Source: Streptomyces nodosus (GTDB taxonomy: Bacteria; Actinomycetota; Actinomycetes; Streptomycetales; Streptomycetaceae). From it: a DNA stretch of 64,000 nucleotides. Under the pieces are notes generated by a model. That model did not search any database. It had not been told where the DNA came from and worked only from the letters and a program-made list of their open reading frames with translations. How positions within the stretch are numbered: the stretch's first letter is position 1; every line of letters starts with the position of its first letter. The stretch covers positions 930,001-994,000 of the forward strand of contig NZ_CP023747.1 of assembly GCF_008704995.1 (NCBI RefSeq), read 5' to 3'. A program made the position numbers and the translations under genes. Of the stretch, positions 6,596 through 43,795 are shown piece after piece.

Positions 6596-7096
6596 ATGAC
6601 CCCGATCACACCCGCCCGTGCCCTGCTGCTGCTCACCGTCGGCCTGGTCTGCCTGATCACCGCGAGCGGGGCACTGATCGGCGCGCTGTTCGGCGGTGTC
6701 CGGGGCGCCCTTCTCGCCGCGGGGTGCGCGGGTGCGGCGGGCACGCTAGGTGCCCTCTTCGTCCGCCGGCGTGCGCTGAGGCACTTCGCGGCGGCCCAGC
6801 GGGAGGCCGGCATCCGCGGCTACGCCGAGGGGATCGCACACGGGGTGCTGCTCCATGTCGCCGCCTACGAGGCCGCGGTCTTCCCGCGCACGGGGCCCAC
6901 CGGGGTCGCCGCCGAGGAGCGCGCCGCCCGACGCACCCTCGCCTATCGGATGGCGGCGCTGGACGAGGTGCCCCGGCTGGTCAGAGAGGCCGCCGCGGAC
7001 GCACTGGCCGTCCTCGACGCGGCCGACCGGGCCGGCGCCGAGCAGGCCCTGGCCCAACTCGCCACCGTCGTACGGCAGGAGTACACCCGCCCCTGA
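6596..7096 (+). CDS. Small membrane protein of unknown function
   Basis: A 166-residue protein starting MTPITPARALLLLTVGLVCL. Two adjacent hydrophobic helices (about residues 8-30 and 34-56) are followed by a charged, alanine-rich cytoplasmic region of helical character. I chose the ATG at 6596 because the first membrane helix follows immediately; the frame extends upstream to 6569. No family is recognised. The gene stands alone between a divergent hypothetical gene and the oxidoreductase gene 104 bp downstream. Confidence 0.65.
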   Translation: MTPITPARALLLLTVGLVCLITASGALIGALFGGVRGALLAAGCAGAAGTLGALFVRRRALRHFAAAQREAGIRGYAEGIAHGVLLHVAAYEAAVFPRTGPTGVAAEERAARRTLAYRMAALDEVPRLVREAAADALAVLDAADRAGAEQALAQLATVVRQEYTRP

Positions 7097-7200
7097 ACGG
7101 CAGGCCCCACGGTGCGACGGGGACCGGTCGGCCGTGTCCGGCCGGTCCCCTCGCCGAGGCGCTCTCGCCAAGTCCGTGAAGTCATGATGGAGTTCCCTCC

Positions 7201-8094
7201 ATGACGGACATCTCGCAGCCATGGAACGGGGAACCGGTGCGGGTCGGGCTGGTCGGGGCCGGCCCCTGGGCGCGCGCCGTGCACGCACGGGTGCTGGCGG
7301 CCGGACCCGAGACCCGGCTGACGGCGGTGTGGGCGCGCCGCGAGGAGGCGGCCCGCGAGATCGCCACGCCGTACGGTGCCGCGGTGGCCGCCGGGTTCGA
7401 GGAACTCCTCGACAGCTGTGAGGCGGTGGCCTTCTCGGTCCCCCCGGCGGTCCAGGCGGAGTTGGCGTTGCGGGCGGCCAAGGCGGGCAAGGCCCTGCTG
7501 CTGGAGAAGCCGCTCGGCGCGGATCTGCCGTCGGCGCGACGGCTGGCCGACGCGATCGAGGAGGCCGGGCTCGTCAGTCAGCTCGTCCTGAGCAACCGTT
7601 ACCATCCGGCCGCGCGACGGTTCCTGGCCGCCGCACATGACCTGGAGATCTACGGTGCGCGCTCGCAGGGGCTGAGCGCCGCCTTCCTGGGCGGGGACTT
7701 CACCACCCCCTGGCGGCTGGAGCACGGGGCGCTGCTCGATGTGGGGCCGCATCTGCTCGATCTGCTGGACGCGGCGATCGGTCCCATCGAGCGGGTGCGG
7801 GGCGTCGGCGACCCCCGCCGATGGATCGAACTCACCTGCGAACACGCCAGCGGGGCGGTCAGTCAGTGCTCGTTGTCCGGCTCGGTGAACGTCCCGGACG
7901 GCGGCACCCGTATCGAGCTCTTCGGACCGCAGCCCCCGCTGGTGTACGACACGGCCGAGCTGGGCCCCGAGGAGCCCTGGCCGGTACTGCGCCGGGAGTT
8001 CGCCACCGCCGTGCGCAGCGGGGTGTCCGGTGAGCTGGACGCTCGGCGCGGGCTACGGCTCCAGGAGCTGATCGCGCAGGCCGCCCCGGCCTAG
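7201..8094 (+). CDS. Gfo/Idh/MocA-family NAD(P)-dependent oxidoreductase
   Basis: A 297-residue dehydrogenase of the inositol/glucose-fructose oxidoreductase superfamily. The Rossmann motif VGLVGAGPWARAVHARVL is at residues 14-31, and LLLEKPLGADL holds the family EKP motif with the catalytic lysine. Substrates are usually sugars, inositols or their derivatives. The C-terminal beta-sheet domain is a little shorter than usual (members are typically 330-380 residues), but the reading frame is intact. The second half contains the expected HGALLDVGPHLLDLLDAAIG segment. The neighbours give no pathway link. Confidence 0.85.
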   Translation: MTDISQPWNGEPVRVGLVGAGPWARAVHARVLAAGPETRLTAVWARREEAAREIATPYGAAVAAGFEELLDSCEAVAFSVPPAVQAELALRAAKAGKALLLEKPLGADLPSARRLADAIEEAGLVSQLVLSNRYHPAARRFLAAAHDLEIYGARSQGLSAAFLGGDFTTPWRLEHGALLDVGPHLLDLLDAAIGPIERVRGVGDPRRWIELTCEHASGAVSQCSLSGSVNVPDGGTRIELFGPQPPLVYDTAELGPEEPWPVLRREFATAVRSGVSGELDARRGLRLQELIAQAAPA

Positions 8095-8190
8095 GACGAC
8101 CGGCCGGGTGGGGTGGCGCGGGGGCGCCGTTCAGGGGAAAACGACCGGTCGGGACGCGTGAGGACCGGCGGCACCGTCCACAAGTGACCC

Positions 8191-9156
8191 GTGAGACTGC
8201 CGCTGATCGCCCCCATGCTCGCCACCCCAGGCTCCCTGCCGCCCGTCCGGCAGGACGCACAGTGGGCCTACGAGACCAAACAGGACGGCCAGCGGGTGGT
8301 GGTGTATCTGCCCGGAGACGGCAGCCTGGAGCTGCGCGCCCGGTCGGGCGAGATCATCACCGGCGCCTATCCGGAGCTCGGACCGCTGGGCGGCGCCCTG
8401 GGCGAGACACCGGCCGTGCTGGACGGGGAGGTGGTGGCCCTGGACGAGCGGGGGCGCGGTGACTTCCAGCGGCTCCAGTCGCGTATGGGGCTGGCCCACT
8501 CCCCCGCGCTGGCGGCGCGCCGTGCCGCGGGGACACCGGTGCACCTGGTGCTGTTCGACGTGATGTTCCTGGAACACCCCCTGACCGGTCTGCCCTACAC
8601 CCGTCGGCGCACGGAACTGGAGGCGCTCCGGCTGGAGGGGCCGAACTGGTCGACGCCGGGCGCGCTCGTCGGTCATGGTGCCGAGGCCCTGGAGGCGACC
8701 CGGGTACAGGGCCTGGAGGGGTTGGTGTGCAAGAGGCTCGACTCGGTGTACGAGCCCGGCGTGCGCTCCCGCCACTGGATCAAGATCCGCAATGTACAGG
8801 CCGTGGATGTGATCGTCGGCGGCTGGCTGCCGGGCCAGGGGCGGCTGACCGGGCTGCCCGGAGCGCTGCTGGTGGGGCAGCGGGAGGCGGGACGGCTGCA
8901 CTATGTCGGCCGGGTCGGCACCGGCTGGAGCGAGACCGAGCGGACCGAGCTCGCCCGGCTGCTGCACGTCATGGAGACGCGTAAGTGCCCCTTCGACCGC
9001 GACCCGAGGATTCCCGGGTCCCACTGGGTCCTGCCGAGACTGGTCGGCGAGGTCCGCTACCACACCCGTACCCGGTCAGGTCTGCTGCGTCAGCCGTCCT
9101 GGCTGCGGCTGCGCCCGGACCTCGCGCCGGAGGACTCGGCGGCGGATCTGCCGTGA
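8191..9156 (+). CDS. ATP-dependent DNA ligase (LigC-like)
   Basis: A 321-residue ligase starting at GTG 8191. Motif I ETKQDGQR carries the AMP-accepting Lys30 (KxDG). Further nucleotidyltransferase motifs are DGEVVALDE, LVLFDVMFLEH, EGLVCKR and HWIKIRN, followed by an OB-fold C-terminal domain (WLPGQGRLTGLPGALLVGQ). The size fits the stand-alone LigC-type ligases of actinobacteria, which act beside the NAD-dependent LigA in repair. No Ku or polymerase domain gene is adjacent, so participation in end-joining cannot be claimed from this window. Confidence 0.9.
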   Translation: MRLPLIAPMLATPGSLPPVRQDAQWAYETKQDGQRVVVYLPGDGSLELRARSGEIITGAYPELGPLGGALGETPAVLDGEVVALDERGRGDFQRLQSRMGLAHSPALAARRAAGTPVHLVLFDVMFLEHPLTGLPYTRRRTELEALRLEGPNWSTPGALVGHGAEALEATRVQGLEGLVCKRLDSVYEPGVRSRHWIKIRNVQAVDVIVGGWLPGQGRLTGLPGALLVGQREAGRLHYVGRVGTGWSETERTELARLLHVMETRKCPFDRDPRIPGSHWVLPRLVGEVRYHTRTRSGLLRQPSWLRLRPDLAPEDSAADLP

Positions 9157-35150: not shown

Positions 35151-35163
35151 TCGAAAGTTTCGA
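35151..35163. promoter_or_regulatory. BxlR-type operator at bxlE
   Basis: TCGAAAGTTTCGA, a perfect 13-bp palindrome (central G) 11 bp before the bxlE start codon and about 25 bp downstream of the predicted transcription start. It probably acts as a roadblock site for the LacI-family regulator encoded next door. Confidence 0.75.
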
Positions 35164-35279: not shown

Positions 35280-36302
35280 ATGCGCGATGACCACGAGGTG
35301 AACGGTCGAGTGACCCTGGCGGCGGTGGCCGAACAGGCCGGGGTGTCGCTGTCGACGGTTTCGAAAGTCCTCAACGGCCGTTCCGATGTCGCCGAGGCGA
35401 CCCGCACCAGGGTGGAGCGGCTACTGGACACGCACGGCTACCGCCGCCGGGCCCAGGGCGCGCCCCGGGCCCCGCTGATCGAGCTGGTCTTCCACGAGCT
35501 GGAGAGCGTCTGGGCGATGGAGCTCATCCGCGGGGTGGAGAACGTCGCCAAGGAGACCAAGGCGAGTGTGGTGCTCACCGAGAGCGGCACCCGGCACGCG
35601 CCCTCGCCCGACTGGATCGAAGGGGTGCTGCGGCGCCGTCCGCTGGGCGTGGTCCTGGTCTTCTCCGCCCTCCCGGACAAGGTCAAGAAGCAACTGCGCT
35701 CGCGGGCCATACCGTTCGTCATCGTGGACCCGGCAGGTGATCCGGATCCCGATGTGCCCTCCGTCGGGTCCGCCAACTGGGCCGGCGGCCTCGCGGCCAC
35801 CCGCCATCTCACCGACTACCGGCACGAGCGCATCGCCATCATCACCGGGCCCGAGGACATGATGTGCTCCCTCGCCCGGCTCGACGGCTACCGCTCGGCC
35901 ATGGCGATGGCCGATCTGACGGTCGATCCGCGGCTGATCCGGTTCGGCGACTTCCATGTGCAGGGCGGCTTCGAACACGCCATGGACCTGCTGGACGGAC
36001 CGGACCGGCCGACCGCCATCTTCGCCGGCAGCGACCTCCAGGCGCTCGGTGTGCTGGAGGCGGCGCGGGTGAAGGGCCTGAGCGTGCCCGGAGACCTCTC
36101 GGTCGTCGGATACGACGACGTCCCGCTGGCCCAGTGGTCGAGCCCGGCGCTGACCACCATCCACCAGCCGCTGCGTCAGATGGCCGAGGAGGCGGCCCGG
36201 ATGCTGCTGCGCCCGGCCGGCCCCCGCGCCTCGTCCCTGCGCATCGAACTCGCCAGTCATCTGGTGGTGCGGCAGAGCACGGCGCCGCCGAAGAGCGCCT
36301 GA
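35280..36302 (+). CDS. bxlR: LacI-family regulator of xylan use (BxlR-like)
   Basis: A 340-residue repressor. The N-terminal HTH reads VTLAAVAEQAGVSLSTVSKV, LNGRSDVAEATRTRVERLL then DTHGYR; the hinge helix follows. The C-terminal periplasmic-binding-like effector domain includes VLVFSALPDKVKKQL, HERIAIITGPEDM and SVVGYDDVPLAQWSSPALTT, the family signature. The ATG at 35280 is followed by a possible GTG at codon 7. It is divergent from bxlE and upstream of the xylanase gene. Perfect CGAAANTTTCG palindromes flank both targets, which makes it the likely binder. A half-site TTCGAAA lies just before its own start. Confidence 0.87.
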   Translation: MRDDHEVNGRVTLAAVAEQAGVSLSTVSKVLNGRSDVAEATRTRVERLLDTHGYRRRAQGAPRAPLIELVFHELESVWAMELIRGVENVAKETKASVVLTESGTRHAPSPDWIEGVLRRRPLGVVLVFSALPDKVKKQLRSRAIPFVIVDPAGDPDPDVPSVGSANWAGGLAATRHLTDYRHERIAIITGPEDMMCSLARLDGYRSAMAMADLTVDPRLIRFGDFHVQGGFEHAMDLLDGPDRPTAIFAGSDLQALGVLEAARVKGLSVPGDLSVVGYDDVPLAQWSSPALTTIHQPLRQMAEEAARMLLRPAGPRASSLRIELASHLVVRQSTAPPKSA

Positions 36303-36369: not shown

Positions 36370-36384
36370 GCCGAAAGTTTCGGC
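36370..36384. promoter_or_regulatory. BxlR-type palindrome between bxlR and the xylanase gene
   Basis: GCCGAAAGTTTCGGC, a perfect 15-bp palindrome 68 bp after the bxlR stop and 113 bp before the xylanase -35 box. It may act as an auxiliary site for looping to 36551. Confidence 0.6.
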
Positions 36385-36496: not shown

Positions 36497-38072
<1,576 letters not shown>

Positions 38073-38158: not shown

Positions 38159-38286
38159 TCACCGTGTCCGGCCCGGCCGGCGGGCGGATCGGGGCGATAC
38201 GGGGCGAGTGTTGACCACTGCGGCACTAGGCTGGAGCACGAGTGATGTACTCGGTCACGGGGAGTGTGTGCAAGGGAGTGGCGTCG

Positions 38287-40689
38287 ATGAGCCCCGTCCA
38301 TCCCTCCGGCGAGGCCGCCACGGCCCGGGCAGTCGTCGACGACCACGGCCTTCTGGTGGAGTGGAACGAGCCTGCGCGCCGGCTGCTGGGCTACGCCCCG
38401 GGTGAGGCCGAGGGCCGTCCCGCCGCCGAGTTGCTCGTGCCGGGTGGCCGGGTGCCGTCACCCGGACCGGGCGGGGCCCGCTGGAGCGGCACGGTCGAGC
38501 TGCGCCGCCGCGACGGACACCCCCTGTCCCTGTGGCTGCTCGCCCACCGCCGGCGACACGAGCCCGGCGGCGGCTGGCTGGTGCTCGCTCCGCTCGGCTC
38601 CGCTCCGCCCGCCGGGCACGACCGTCTGATGCGCATGGCGACGGCCCGTTCCCCTTGTGCCATCGCCGTCTGGGACGAGGATCTGCGGCTGCGCGACGTC
38701 AACGACGCCATGGGCGAGGTGATCGGGCTGCCTCTGGAGCGCATACGCGGTCTGCGGATGTCGGAGATCGGCGGCAAGCCCGAGGCCGATGCCCTGGAGC
38801 GCCGGGCGCGGGAGGTCCTGGACACCGGGCAGGCCCGGGACGTGCGCACCCGGCTGCGCGCCGGCGTGGAGGAGTACGCGCACGGCTGGCTGGTCCGGCT
38901 GACCCCGCTGACCGACGGCGACGGCCGGGTGTGCGGAGTGTCCGTGACCGCGCACGACCTGGCCGAACAGGATCTGGCCCAGGAACGGCTGCAGCTGGTC
39001 AACGAGGCGAGCGTACGCATCGGCACCACCCTGGACGTCAGACGCACCGCGCAGGAGCTGGCCGATGTGTGCGTGCCGGCGCTCGCCGACTTCGTGAGCG
39101 TGGACCTGCTGGATCCGCCGGCCGACGGGGCCGCGCCCCGTCCGGACACGCTCACCGCGCCGCTGACGCTGCGCCGGGCCGCCCATCGGTCGGTGACTCC
39201 CGGCTGCCCGCAGGCGCTGGTGGAGCCGGGGCAGTCCGGCCTCTACCCGGCCCACTCGCCCCAGGCGGCCTGTCTGGTGTCCGGCCGGACGACGGTCAGG
39301 ACGGACGTCCCCGGCCCGCTCACCGAGCCGCCCGGCCGGGGCCGTGCCCGTGCCGCACGGGCCGACGGGCTCGGTGTGCACTCCACCATGGCCGTGCCGA
39401 TCATGGCCCGCGGCGGAACACTCGGGGTGGCCGTGCTCACCCGGTACCGGCGTCCGGAGCCCTTCACCCCCGACGACGTCCTGCTGGCCGAGGAGATCAC
39501 GGCACGGGCCGCCGTCTGCATCGACAACGCCCGCCGGTTCTCCCGGGAACGCAGGACCGCGCTCGCCCTCCAGCGCAGCCTGCTGCCGCGCACCCTGCCG
39601 CGGACCGCCGCGCTGGAGGCCGCCTCCCGCTATCTGCCCGCGGCCCGGGCGGGGGTGGGCGGCGACTGGTTCGATGTGATCCCGCTGTCCGGGATGCGGG
39701 TCGCCATGGTGGTCGGCGACGTGGTGGGCCAGGGCGTCCCGGCCTCCGCGACGATGGGCCGGCTGCGCACCGCCGTACGGACCCTCGCCGACATCGATCT
39801 GGCGCCGGACGAGCTGCTCACCCATCTCGACGACCTCGTGGTGCGGCTCTCCCGGGACGCCGGGCAGGAGGGCACGACCGGCGAGATGGGGGCCACCTGT
39901 CTCTACGCCGTCTACGACCCGGTCTCACGCCGCTGCACGCTCGCGCGGGCGGGCCATCCGGCGCCGGTGATGATGGCGCCGGGCGAGCCGCCGCGGGAGA
40001 TCAAGCTGCCGAGCGGACCGCCGCTGGGTCTGGGCGGGCTGCCGTTCGAGTCGGCCGAGATCGACCTGCCCGAGGGCACGGTGCTCGGCCTGTACACCGA
40101 CGGTCTGATCGACAGCCCCGAGCGGGACGCCGACAGCAGCCGGAGACTGCTGTGCACGGCCCTCGCCGGGGCCCCGGCCGCCCCCGGCTCCGAGCCGGCG
40201 CCGTTCTCGCTCGACGACGCCTGCGCCCGCATTCTGCACACCCTGCTCCCCCGGGGCGGGGCCGCCGACGATGTGGCGCTGCTGCTCGCCCGCACCCATG
40301 GGCTGCCCGCCTCGCAGATCGTGACCTGGGAGATCCCCGCCGCGCCCGCGCTGGTGGCGGAGATCCGCAGACAGGTCGTCGAGCAGCTGGAGGTCCGGGG
40401 GCTGAGCGAGACCGCCTTCACCGCCGAACTGGTCGTCAGTGAGCTGGTCACCAACGCCATCCGGTACGGCGAGCACCCGATCCGGCTGCGGTTGGTCCAC
40501 GACTCCGCCACGCTGATCCTCGAGGTCTCCGACAGCAGTCACACCGCCCCGCACCTGCGCCGGGCCAGAACCTATGACGAGGGTGGCCGCGGCCTGCTGC
40601 TGGTGGCCCAGCTCACCCAGCGCTGGGGCAGCCGCCACACCACCGACGGCAAGACGATCTGGGCGGAGCTGAGCCTGCTGGAGGAGTGA
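38287..40689 (+). CDS. PAS-GAF-SpoIIE phosphatase with ATPase domain
   Basis: An 800-residue cytoplasmic signalling protein. AAGGGAG nine bases ahead favours the ATG at 38287; an ATG at 38242 is in frame. Domains in order: PAS (VVDDHGLLVEWNEPARRLLG), second PAS (IAVWDEDLRLRDVNDAMGEV), GAF (LVNEASVRIGTTLDVRRTAQ on), SpoIIE/PP2C phosphatase (QRSLLPRTLPRTAALEAASR, GGDWFDVIPLSGMRVAMVVG, LGLYTDGLID), and a HATPase_c anti-sigma-like end (ELVVSELVTNAIRYG, GRGLLLVAQL). Such proteins set sigma-factor activity by dephosphorylating an anti-anti-sigma factor and phosphorylating or binding it. It is convergent with the sigma-like lectin gene, 24 bp between stops. Confidence 0.9.
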   Translation: MSPVHPSGEAATARAVVDDHGLLVEWNEPARRLLGYAPGEAEGRPAAELLVPGGRVPSPGPGGARWSGTVELRRRDGHPLSLWLLAHRRRHEPGGGWLVLAPLGSAPPAGHDRLMRMATARSPCAIAVWDEDLRLRDVNDAMGEVIGLPLERIRGLRMSEIGGKPEADALERRAREVLDTGQARDVRTRLRAGVEEYAHGWLVRLTPLTDGDGRVCGVSVTAHDLAEQDLAQERLQLVNEASVRIGTTLDVRRTAQELADVCVPALADFVSVDLLDPPADGAAPRPDTLTAPLTLRRAAHRSVTPGCPQALVEPGQSGLYPAHSPQAACLVSGRTTVRTDVPGPLTEPPGRGRARAARADGLGVHSTMAVPIMARGGTLGVAVLTRYRRPEPFTPDDVLLAEEITARAAVCIDNARRFSRERRTALALQRSLLPRTLPRTAALEAASRYLPAARAGVGGDWFDVIPLSGMRVAMVVGDVVGQGVPASATMGRLRTAVRTLADIDLAPDELLTHLDDLVVRLSRDAGQEGTTGEMGATCLYAVYDPVSRRCTLARAGHPAPVMMAPGEPPREIKLPSGPPLGLGGLPFESAEIDLPEGTVLGLYTDGLIDSPERDADSSRRLLCTALAGAPAAPGSEPAPFSLDDACARILHTLLPRGGAADDVALLLARTHGLPASQIVTWEIPAAPALVAEIRRQVVEQLEVRGLSETAFTAELVVSELVTNAIRYGEHPIRLRLVHDSATLILEVSDSSHTAPHLRRARTYDEGGRGLLLVAQLTQRWGSRHTTDGKTIWAELSLLEE

Positions 40690-40713: not shown

Positions 40714-42486
40714 TCAGCGCCCGCCGTCCCGGGCGTCGTACCAGTCGTCCTCTCCGTCCGTGCCGTCGCCGTCGCCCAGGTCGCTCCGGTCGTCCGGGGC
40801 ACCGCGCTCGCCGGGCCGGGCAGAGCGCGGGCCCGTCTCGGAGCCGGTGCCCGTCGGCCCGGGGACCGGCGGCGAGGCGCTCCCGGCCGCCCGGGGCGGT
40901 TCGGTGCCCGGGGGCGTCGCGGCCGGCCCGTCGGCCGCCTTCGGTGCGTCCGCGGTGTCGGCGGTGTCGGCGATCCAGCGCTGGGCGGGGTCCTCCGTAC
41001 GGTTCCGGAGCACCAGCCCGGCGTCGCGCTCCGGCGAGGCGGGGGTGAGGGCCAGCTGCCGGTTCCCGCGCGGGACGATCACGCCCCGGTCGGTGACGTC
41101 GTAGCGGTCGGTCTCCGCCCCGGGCCCGGACCGTTCCGCGCAGGCGACCAGCTGGACCGCGTAGCCGAGGCGGGAGTCGAGACACAGATCGGGGGCGGCG
41201 GCGCTGCGCAGCGGTCCCTCGGTGGCGTACATCCATCGCTGGGTCGTGGCGGCGGCGCAGGGGACCAGTACCGCTTCGGCGCCCACGACCGCCTTGTCCC
41301 GGTCGAGGCCGACGCACAGACCGTTGCCCTCGTTGCGCAGCCGGCCCTCGAAGCCGGCCATGGGCACGGCGGCACCGTGCTTCGGGGACGCGCCGGGGGA
41401 AGTCGACGATGCCGGGGCGGACTTCCCGGAGGGCGCGGGCGCCCCCACCACGGCCGGCCCCTCCGAGCGGACGCCGGACCACAGGGCGAGCGGTACCAGG
41501 ACGAACACCCCCACCGCGGCCACGGCGAGCACCGTCCTGCGACGGGAGGGACTGGCCTCCTTGCTCCCTTCCGAGCCGGGACCGGCGTCGCCGGCCGGCG
41601 GCTCCGCTCCGAGAGGCTCCGGCTCCGGCGGCTCCCCGGCCCCGATGCTCCGCGCGTCCTTGGTGTCCAGGTACTCCTGCGCTCCCCAGCCGAGCACCCC
41701 CTCGGCAAGCAGGAGCGAAAGCCGGTCGCGGAATCCCTCCAGCTGCCCGGCGGCGTCCCGGCAGTGCGGGCAGCCGTCCAGGTGGAGACGGAGATCGGGA
41801 TCGAGGGCACGGTCCGCCCGGCGCAGCGAGACATCGAGCAGACCGGAGTAGTGGCGGCACTCCTCGTCGGGGGCCGATTCGCGGTGGACGTCCAGACAGA
41901 CCTCGCGCAGCCGTTCCCGCACCCGTTCCAGCCGCACCGCCGCTTCGGCGAGGTCGATCCCCAACAGGGCCGCGGGAACGGCGACTTCCTCGCGTTCGAC
42001 CTCGACATGCCACAGCAGGCAGCGGTCAGGCTCGGCCATCCGCCGGAAGGCGAGGGACATCAGCCGCCGGTTCCGGGCCGGCAGCAGCCGGGCCGCGGCG
42101 CTCTCTTCCTCTCCCGGGCCGGACCGCAACGCGGGATGCAGCAGCGCCCGACGGTGGTCGGTGTCCCACTCCCCGGCCAGCTGCCGCACGGTGACCAGCA
42201 GTTCGGGTCGCCATGCGGCCGTCGGTCCGCTCCCGCGCCCGGACTCCTCGAAGAGCCGGGTGAACGCCGCGGTGGTGAGCATTCCGGCGGGGTGCGCCCC
42301 GTCGGCGCACAGCCGGGCATAGGAGTGAACGGCCTCCCAGTGCCGGCCGAGCAGTTCACCGACCGGACGGTGCACAGGTTTCTTCCCGGCGGACGACTTC
42401 AGCTCGGCGGCGAGCTGTTCGTCCGTCATGTCGTACGGCGGAACAGGGTCGGGGGAATTCCGCCGGTCCCCAGCAGGTACGTCCAC
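40714..42486 (-). CDS. Transmembrane protein with sigma-factor-like, zinc-finger and ricin-lectin domains
   Basis: A 590-residue protein; GTG 42486 follows GGAGAACC. The cytoplasmic N-terminus resembles an ECF-type sigma factor: a region-2-like helix (LGRHWEAVHSYARLC, 46-60) and a region-4-like part (MAEPDRCLLWHVEVEREEVA, 150-169, then LAEAAVRLERVRERLRE). Next comes an anti-sigma-type zinc motif HLDGCPHC (235-242), one membrane helix (about 318-338), a Ser/Pro linker, a ricin-type beta-trefoil (about 378-505; CAAATTQRW, CLDSRLGYAVQLVAC, DPAQRW) and a low-complexity tail. By topology the lectin lies outside. Similar proteins exist in Streptomyces without a defined role. A CCGAAAGTTTCGG palindrome lies 185 bp upstream. 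Confidence 0.8.
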   Translation of the reverse strand: MDVPAGDRRNSPDPVPPYDMTDEQLAAELKSSAGKKPVHRPVGELLGRHWEAVHSYARLCADGAHPAGMLTTAAFTRLFEESGRGSGPTAAWRPELLVTVRQLAGEWDTDHRRALLHPALRSGPGEEESAAARLLPARNRRLMSLAFRRMAEPDRCLLWHVEVEREEVAVPAALLGIDLAEAAVRLERVRERLREVCLDVHRESAPDEECRHYSGLLDVSLRRADRALDPDLRLHLDGCPHCRDAAGQLEGFRDRLSLLLAEGVLGWGAQEYLDTKDARSIGAGEPPEPEPLGAEPPAGDAGPGSEGSKEASPSRRRTVLAVAAVGVFVLVPLALWSGVRSEGPAVVGAPAPSGKSAPASSTSPGASPKHGAAVPMAGFEGRLRNEGNGLCVGLDRDKAVVGAEAVLVPCAAATTQRWMYATEGPLRSAAAPDLCLDSRLGYAVQLVACAERSGPGAETDRYDVTDRGVIVPRGNRQLALTPASPERDAGLVLRNRTEDPAQRWIADTADTADAPKAADGPAATPPGTEPPRAAGSASPPVPGPTGTGSETGPRSARPGERGAPDDRSDLGDGDGTDGEDDWYDARDGGR

Positions 42487-42907
42487 GGTTCTCCAAAGCC
42501 CACGCAGAGGTTTTCAGTACATATCAATGGAGACAGGGAAACAGAAACAGACCCGACCACCCGTCAGGACGCGGCGAACGCCCACAAATTGCCCCGTATT
42601 TCGAACATCCACCCGAGACGGCTCTTTTTCGGCGGAAGACGCACGACGCCGCTGACCACACCGAGAAGTGCCGAAAGTTTCGGGCCGACGGGAACACCTT
42701 TGCACAGGCCACCGAGACCGAACAAGAGAGCTTCTCGGTTTCCTTTTCCCGTAGGGCGCCGACGACTTGAAGAGAAGTCAACCGGACACGGGGCGCCGGG
42801 AATTCCGGAAGACCGTCCGGACCGCTTCCCCGGGAAATTCACCTCTGTGCACGGCGTGCCGGGGCCGGTGATGCTCCGGGCAGATTCCGCAGGACCGGTC
42901 GGGCCGG
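42487..42907. other. Gene-free stretch upstream of the sigma-like lectin gene
   Basis: Lower GC than the surroundings, fitting a long promoter region for the minus-strand gene at 42486. The palindrome at 42671-42683 is its only strong feature. No credible gene is present. Confidence 0.5.
42671..42683. promoter_or_regulatory. BxlR-type palindrome upstream of the sigma-like lectin gene
   Basis: CCGAAAGTTTCGG, a perfect 13-bp palindrome whose 11-bp core is identical to that of the bxlE operator. It is 185 bp upstream of the lectin protein's start, with no other gene promoter in the interval. Confidence 0.6.
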
Positions 42908-43795
42908 TCAGGCGGTGAAGGCGAGTACCGCGTCCGCGACCGCCCTCGGGTTCTCCAGCAGCATCGCGTGGGTGGCGTCGATCCCGGCGACGGTCACCTG
43001 CTCGCGTTCCTCGGCCAGCGCGGCGAGATCGCGGGCGAGTCCCTTGGCGTAGGCGGCCATCATGGGCTCGAACCAGTCGGGGCCGGTGACCGCGGGCACC
43101 GCCCGCCGGGCGCGGCCCAGCAGCAGCGGTGTGGTCATCCTGCGGAACAGGGCGAAGAGGTCGAGTCCCGCCACGGCCCCGAGCATCTGCAGGGCGTCCC
43201 GCCGTCCGGGCCGTACCTCCAGGGCGCCGTCGTCGCGCCGGCGCACGGCGCGCAGCACACCGGCCTCCAGCAGCTCGTACGGGATGCCCAGTCGGTCGGA
43301 GATCTCCCGCTGCTCGGCGAGCAGGTCCTTGAGCCCCTCCGCGGACAGTTCCCTGCCCTGCCCGGCGACGCTCAGCTCGCGCATCTTGACGAGGTGTCCG
43401 GCGACGACGTCCGGATCGAGGCCCACATACTGGTCGGGGCGTCCCCAGCCGAATCCGTCGAGGTCGACCGCGCCGGGAGTGACATCCGGGTGCTCCAGCG
43501 CGTACAGCACGGCGAGCATCCCGCCGAGGGAGTGACCGACGGGCAGGGCGCCCGGGATCCCGTGTGCCGTCAGCACCTGCTCGATGTCACCGAGGACCTC
43601 GGGCAGCCGCCAGGGCCCCGACGGCGAGCGGCCGTGGCCGCGCAGGTCCACGGACAGCACCCGGTGCCGTACCACGAGGAGGGGCGCCACGGCGGCCCAG
43701 TCGGCGAGCGTGCGTCCGGCGCCGTGCAGAAGGATCAGGGGCGGCCCCTCACCGCCGTGCTCGTGAACGGCCAGCGCGAAACGGTCTCCGGTCAT
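42908..43795 (-). CDS. Alpha/beta hydrolase
   Basis: A 295-residue hydrolase. The oxyanion-hole motif is LILLHGAGRTLADW (residues 20-33). The nucleophile elbow is PVGHSLGGMLA with Ser near 98. The late acid and histidine are in VTVAGIDATHAMLLENP near the C-terminus. No signal peptide is present, so the enzyme is cytoplasmic. The substrate cannot be deduced; the group includes esterases, epoxide hydrolases and haloperoxidase-like enzymes. It reads toward the sigma-like lectin gene's upstream region on the same strand and has no clear partner. Confidence 0.88.
   Translation of the reverse strand: MTGDRFALAVHEHGGEGPPLILLHGAGRTLADWAAVAPLLVVRHRVLSVDLRGHGRSPSGPWRLPEVLGDIEQVLTAHGIPGALPVGHSLGGMLAVLYALEHPDVTPGAVDLDGFGWGRPDQYVGLDPDVVAGHLVKMRELSVAGQGRELSAEGLKDLLAEQREISDRLGIPYELLEAGVLRAVRRRDDGALEVRPGRRDALQMLGAVAGLDLFALFRRMTTPLLLGRARRAVPAVTGPDWFEPMMAAYAKGLARDLAALAEEREQVTVAGIDATHAMLLENPRAVADAVLAFTA

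Follow-up and report, generated by a model that had tools for sequence, protein, structure and literature searches.

What does a sigma-factor fold do inside a membrane-anchored lectin, and which promoters, if any, does it read? This question is raised by a gene in a 64,000-nucleotide stretch of the Streptomyces nodosus genome (assembly GCF_008704995.1, contig NZ_CP023747.1, positions 930,001-994,000; 7.77 Mb in a single contig), which we call the window and whose numbering we use unless genome positions are named. The gene lies at 40714..42486 on the minus strand and encodes a protein of 590 residues that carries, in one chain, the folds of sigma2 and sigma4, an anti-sigma-type zinc motif with four ligands, a single membrane helix and a trefoil of the ricin/CBM13 kind. 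A promoter-like element stands almost exclusively before members of this protein's family. Our leading reading, which we put forward tentatively, is that the protein is a sugar-sensing, membrane-tethered regulator derived from an extracytoplasmic function (ECF) sigma factor and reading mainly its own promoter.

Sigma-like fold, zinc domain, membrane helix and lectin in one chain

The open reading frame begins with a GTG codon at 42486. This start is supported by GGAGAACC just 5′ of the GTG and by the closest relatives, which align with the protein from residue 1. The initial annotation had given the feature a span of 40714-42683; its end at 40714 stands, while 42683 is the edge of an upstream palindrome. 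A homolog scan with the single protein returned no relatives, whereas one with an alignment as query confirmed at least 569, and we compared the best 80 loci, nearly all of them from Streptomyces. Three alignments were used: A3, with residues 1-285 of the window protein and 82 homologous stretches from the 80 loci (83 sequences); A4, with the window protein and 67 of the 82 homologs (68 sequences, the 15 left out being truncated, very long or surplus); and A1, with 34 members.

Profile searches, which the initial annotation had proposed, bore out the lectin and gave weak matches for the sigma and zinc parts. The Pfam scan of the whole protein shows the ricin trefoil only, with no sigma family among its matches; a weak DUF4307 match (E 0.27) was set aside as chance. 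TIGR02937 (sigma70-ECF) matches residues 44-195 with E 0.15 and does not reach its family cut-off (11.6 bits against 42.9). With the threshold at E 1, 19 of the 34 sequences in A1 match TIGR02937 and 16 match Pfam Sigma70_r2, and in the A4 scan Sigma70_r2 matches 0/68 and Sigma70_r4_2 6/68. The best match of the A3 profile among PDB sequences is M. tuberculosis SigE, covering the sigma region with E 0.24.

The similarity to sigma factors that had been proposed for the N-terminal part was found by structure prediction. An AlphaFold2 model of residues 1-285, built from A3, is almost wholly helical (pLDDT 90.4, pTM 0.87). When this model was aligned by part, residues 17-127 matched ECF sigma2 domains, best that of SigW (Z 10.3, 91 residues, 2.7 Å), and residues 136-204 matched sigma4 of SigL (Z 6.8, 1.4 Å over 62 columns), though the alignment tool warns that middling Z values are common for helical models. 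ECF sigma chains also top the Foldseek and VIA lists; the Foldseek E-values are modest (best 0.015, none ≤0.001), possibly owing to a different packing of the two sigma domains. On this basis we delimit a sigma2-like domain at residues 20-127 (42106..42429) and a sigma4-like domain at residues 136-204 (41875..42081).

The model, the conserved ligands and Pfam together confirm that all four proposed parts occur in one protein. The zinc motif holds up as an anti-sigma-type domain (residues 206-250, 41737..41871): C210, H235, C239 and C242 are invariant in 83/83 sequences of A3, and an NCBIfam anti-sigma family matches residues 210-250 with E 0.027, in the order expected relative to TIGR02937, although the profile score is weak (NF052368, 14.3 bits against 50). 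A single membrane helix is predicted, in keeping with the insertion expected earlier, at residues 314-337 of the full-length model (pLDDT 77.0; 41476..41547); hydropathy peaks at 318-336, and an RRR on the N-side of that peak suggests that this side lies inside. The same model has the trefoil at residues 379-507 (40966..41352), which would lie outside, with the linkers disordered. Ricin_B_lectin (Pfam) covers residues 380-504 with E 2.9e-14, and the ricin domain matches all 68 sequences of A4. The trefoil resembles the xylan-binding CBM13 of S. lividans (1knl, TMt 0.86) and other R-type lectins, which makes xylan binding plausible, and the Asp of the lectin beta site is retained in 65/68.

A promoter-like element and a BxlR-type operator

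Comparison of the regions upstream of the family's genes gave a two-block, promoter-like element, CTTGTT-N14-TGTGCAAAGGTG. A perfect copy lies at 42695..42726 on the minus strand, before the lectin gene, and the genome contains no other at ≤2 mismatches. Of 83 upstream regions, 81 fit best with a spacer of 14 and 1 with a spacer of 13, and one region has no element; the CTTGTT block is invariant in the 81 with spacer 14. The element looks like a promoter because its spacer and its orientation to the gene are constant in the matched sites while its distance to the start codon varies from 74 to 247 bp. If it is one, transcription would be expected to start several bases after TGTGCAAAGG.

The element is tied to the family well beyond this genome. 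At ≤2 mismatches, 41 genomes contain 26 element sites, every one before a family member. Extending the search to 121 genomes of the genus gave 94 sites in 44 genomes, i.e. these 26 and 68 more, and for 64 of the 68 the match to a family member starts 106-370 bp downstream on the same strand. The four others comprise two at contig ends (L205, L225), one with 100 N (L240) and one apparent chance match (L253). Altogether 90 of the 94 sites precede a family member on the same strand, while the reversed pattern has 3 matches in the 121 genomes. Presence and absence also agree in 25 genomes of the genus, this one included, when relatives are divided into type 1 (E below 1e-130) and type 2, a split of our own by score and tree. 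Type-1 relatives occur in 11 of these genomes and a gene of either type in 13; the element is found in 12 of the 13 and in 0 of the 12 lacking such a gene. No element at ≤2 mismatches stands before one gene of type 1 (G024), nor before two of type 2 (G001, G030) in genomes that carry it elsewhere.

Since the element is almost exclusive to family upstream regions, the family itself suggests itself as its reader. Another candidate was the AraC-like gene (assigned by eye) directly upstream in 41/75 loci, but the S. nodosus genome lacks an ortholog, with partial AraC matches only (best 38% over 107 residues), and yet keeps a perfect element, so a general role for that gene is unlikely. An inverted repeat, TTGAC-N9-GTCAA, stands upstream of the gene at about -288 in five loci (L065, L066, L068, L069, L123), and with N11 at -208 in a sixth (L132); a search of 1.04 Mb of loci gave these 6 copies and no others. 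Its counterpart in the window reads TTGACTTCTCTTCAA.

In S. nodosus a second signal accompanies the element. The initial annotation had noted a bxl-type palindrome upstream of the gene, and pattern searching shows it to be real and rare. The perfect palindrome CGAAACTTTCG at 42672..42682 starts 12 bp past the element and lies ~186 bp upstream of the GTG. The repressor BxlR, which responds to xylobiose, is described in the available part of PMC4743123 as binding CGAAACTTTCG; a similar motif appears in that of PMC12772271. CGAAANTTTCG occurs 5 times in the window and never in shuffled sequence, and 11 times in the whole genome, where the reversed pattern has 0 sites. Of the remaining 10, seven lie in front of xylan genes or of LacI genes adjacent to xylanases: 35152 (LacI) and 36372 and 36551 (GH10) in the window, and genome positions 4482592 (between LacI and GH10), 6018865 (GH11), 7247789 (GH43) and 7386023 (glucuronoyl esterase). 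The three without a clear xylan link are at genome positions 366071, 932736 and 3755116; the first and the last are perfect BxlR-type palindromes with no obvious xylan gene adjoining, and the first lies ~100 bp upstream of an open reading frame that is ParB-like by eye and has no Pfam match. The operator most likely serves the lectin gene, since the next gene upstream (42908-43795), which runs in the same direction, stops short of it. The perfect operator suggests that the lectin gene is under xylan control in this genome. Steric repression would fit, because the box lies about where transcription would start.

Taken together, these features can be arranged into a possible mechanism. The protein would be a single-pass membrane receptor descended from a fused ECF sigma/anti-sigma factor, whose CBM13-like trefoil may bind carbohydrate outside the cell while its sigma fold is held inside by its own zinc anti-sigma-type domain, as the fold and the conserved ligands suggest. 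Ligand binding would free the sigma-like part, probably by proteolysis or conformational change, as has been proposed for ECF52. Without the standard grip on RNA polymerase the freed part would be a highly specialised regulator, and its main, perhaps sole, direct target would be the promoter-like element before its own gene and paralogs. It is from the near-exclusive co-occurrence of element and family that we infer this autoregulation. In S. nodosus, where the BxlR-type operator lies just past the element, expression would probably be released by xylobiose. Topology, sugar ligand, release, autoregulation and repression are each proposed here at the level of inference.

Autoregulation and its alternatives

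Several observations weigh against the autoregulatory reading. The most serious concern region 2.2, where two acidic positions, which we take to be the equivalents of sigma70 D403 and E407 that bind the RNA polymerase core, are M69 and A73 in the window protein; the register was verified against M. tuberculosis SigE. Both acidic residues are lost in 83/83 sequences of A3 (M/A in 73, I/A in 9, M/T in 1), which argues against a role in the RNA polymerase holoenzyme. Additionally, the sigma4 recognition stretch, residues 178-187, has a mean net charge of -3.0 in A3, poor for DNA binding. The earlier proposal of a transcription-type domain inside the cell stands as far as the fold is concerned, but with the canonical core-binding residues lost and the recognition stretch acidic, ordinary sigma function is doubtful, and sigma factors confined to one kind of target would in any case be very unusual. 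Because the element was derived from family upstream regions, its presence there holds by construction, and only its near-absence elsewhere at ≤2 mismatches is informative; it may be read by a widespread regulator that has no other close target. The Asp of the lectin alpha site is mostly replaced (G in 47/68, D in 5/68). Finally, neither CGAAANTTTCG nor GAAANTTTC occurs within 600 bp upstream in any of 80 homolog loci, and near-matches with 2 mismatches within 400 bp are about as frequent there (6/80) as in random segments (42/1600). For the loci seen, we reject the idea that control by BxlR is ancestral to the family, and with 0/80 the BxlR wiring looks lineage-specific.

In A1, both D and E are present in 16/34, including a paralog from the same genome (L045) laid out like the ECF52 class, and changed in 18/34; the net charge of stretch 178-187 is 0 in all 16 intact sequences and averages -2.3 (range -4 to 0) in the 18 changed ones. 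In a tree built without the motif columns, one branch with support 99/98 splits the 16 intact from the 18 eroded sequences, although the root is undefined, the program flagged long branches, and SCO4117, the studied ECF52 protein, is itself absent. One improbable alternative is a sigma factor of the usual ECF52-like kind, with a normal set of targets and a sequence that has merely diverged. The domain order is that reported for SCO4117, the sigma fold is retained, and the intact-motif plasmid relatives L010-L013 are annotated as sigma-70 family; against this stand the separate branch, the core-binding D and E found in 0/83 of the window clade, and the lack of a second element site in the genome at up to 2 mismatches. 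More improbable still is a surface lectin or adhesin whose cytoplasmic part is a structural anchor only. The lectin present in 68/68 homologs scanned and the lost polymerase contacts fit such a protein, but the sigma-like part does not appear to be decaying, since median dN/dS (Nei-Gojobori, 151 pairs) is lowest of all segments in the sigma2-like one, at 0.10, compared with 0.20 in the sigma4-like segment, 0.25 in the zinc segment (150 pairs), 0.44 in the lectin and 0.87 in the poorly aligned linker; the pairs are non-independent, and picking them for 86-97% identity across residues 20-250 may have biased that region towards low values. The invariance of the zinc ligands in 83/83 is likewise hard to reconcile with a mere anchor.

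The domain could also be a sigma mimic that binds not polymerase or DNA but the anti-sigma/zinc domain of another sigma factor, e.g. that of the ECF52-like paralog, and frees this factor as PhyR does for EcfG, with the element read by another protein. We consider this unlikely, though it deserves to be taken seriously: the core-binding residues are gone, the recognition stretch is acidic, the fold is strongly conserved, an intact-motif paralog (L045) is at hand in the same genome, and reviews mention PhyR as well as the mimicry of sigma factors. Its difficulties are that a zinc domain is already present in the same chain, that the partner is only hypothetical, and that the near-exclusive element would need a separate reader with no other close target. 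Weighing the exclusive element against the lost core-binding and DNA-contact character, we place autoregulation first and mimicry second. We suggest, with slightly more reserve than for autoregulation itself, that a large Streptomyces family has turned an ECF sigma fold into the output domain of a membrane sugar receptor, without the standard way of joining polymerase and tied to a dedicated promoter-like element, as a sensory switch, self-contained and self-addressing, wired lineage by lineage into local regulons, here that of xylan via BxlR. The family is a clean test case, with a sigma fold that lacks core-binding residues, a near-exclusive element and, in one genome, a known xylan repressor site. 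Should the domain read the element, it would show how a sigma factor can be reduced to serving its own, self-addressed promoter; otherwise the domain may be a sigma mimic at the membrane. Both outcomes bear on how Streptomyces senses plant polysaccharides.

Neighbours, paralogs and known systems

The xylan locus reported near the gene is real in the window, where a LacI-family regulator (35280..36302, plus strand) has the site at 35152 in front and a GH10 xylanase with CBM2 (36639..38072, plus strand) those at 36372 and 36551. This LacI regulator is 60% identical to that at genome positions 4481499-4482497, and each stands by a GH10-CBM2 xylanase and a BxlR-type site. The proximity does not extend to the relatives: no link to xylan genes was found within their ~6 kb flanks, and the window LacI and xylanase are in no neighbour cluster of >2 members. 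By contrast, the convergence with a PAS-GAF-SpoIIE phosphatase gene is a lasting feature. This PAS-GAF-SpoIIE-HATPase gene (38242..40689, plus strand; Pfam) has a convergent downstream counterpart in 57/75 loci with a usable gene call, 5 further loci having none. The other common neighbours, assigned by eye, are P450, flavoprotein, aldo/keto reductase and AraC, and the P450-like and flavoprotein-like ones are common to the window and its relatives; a GH2-like enzyme (by eye) lies beyond SpoIIE in 26 loci. A second gene copy occurs nearby in two loci (L065 11471-13096, L095 12279-13574), in L065 beyond the SpoIIE gene.

Another paralog in the same genome, L044, carries CBM2 and a partly changed motif (D lost, E kept). 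Its gene (6751-8271 of that locus, genome position about 5925800) and L162-L171 make up a second eroded-sigma membrane family with CBM2, which is present in 11/11 scanned. Among the 25 genomes, this family is found in exactly those 11 that have a close relative of the window protein, a count that ignores kinship. No CebR operator was found near the paralog in L044 at up to 2 mismatches. The relatives L010-L013 are borne on Streptomyces plasmids, that of L010 typed conjugative. Like the window protein they have a sigma part and a zinc finger, and by eye a membrane segment and a trefoil-like C-terminus; unlike it they keep the core-binding D and E, and they are 34-36% identical over the aligned part.

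Sensing sugars outside the cell and controlling transcription inside is the principle of SigI/RsgI in clostridia, which are two separate proteins, the sigma factor belonging to another class and the anti-sigma factor being unrelated; the window protein would share the principle in a single chain. A sigma-like fold put to a use other than transcription initiation, as the mimic reading proposes here, is found in PhyR of alphaproteobacteria. PhyR is a response regulator that is soluble and has a receiver domain; the Pfam scan, taken to E 10, found no such domain in the window protein. SigI is named in the available part of PMC10766802. In the open-licence literature we found no joint mention of ECF sigma factor, ricin, Streptomyces and zinc finger, nor of ricin, anti-sigma, Streptomyces and beta-trefoil.

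The closest known system is ECF52, studied in SCO4117 of Streptomyces coelicolor and, like the window clade, actinobacterial. Its C-terminal module is given as smart00776, compared with a ricin trefoil in the window clade. We take smart00776 to be of the NPCBM type. As described in the portion of PMC5826349 available, ECF52 proteins run from sigma domain through zinc finger, membrane helix and proline-rich extension to a carbohydrate-binding domain, the order seen here, so the single-chain layout is not new; the same source proposes control of ECF52 by sugar binding and proteolysis and calls autoregulation common in ECF factors. ECF48, ECF52 and ECF53 are expected to be activated by proteolysis (PMC8999054, in part), and ECF53 and ECF48 carry C-terminal fusions with a zinc finger and membrane helices, as here, with carbohydrate modules predicted for some ECF52/53 members (PMC8999054, PMC10766802, both in part); according to the section seen of the review PMC10766802, these modules await experimental validation. 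The architecture is thus already known from ECF52. What sets the window clade apart is the eroded core-binding motif, with both acidic residues lost on a branch separate from the intact-motif relatives, together with an upstream element of its own and a ricin trefoil.
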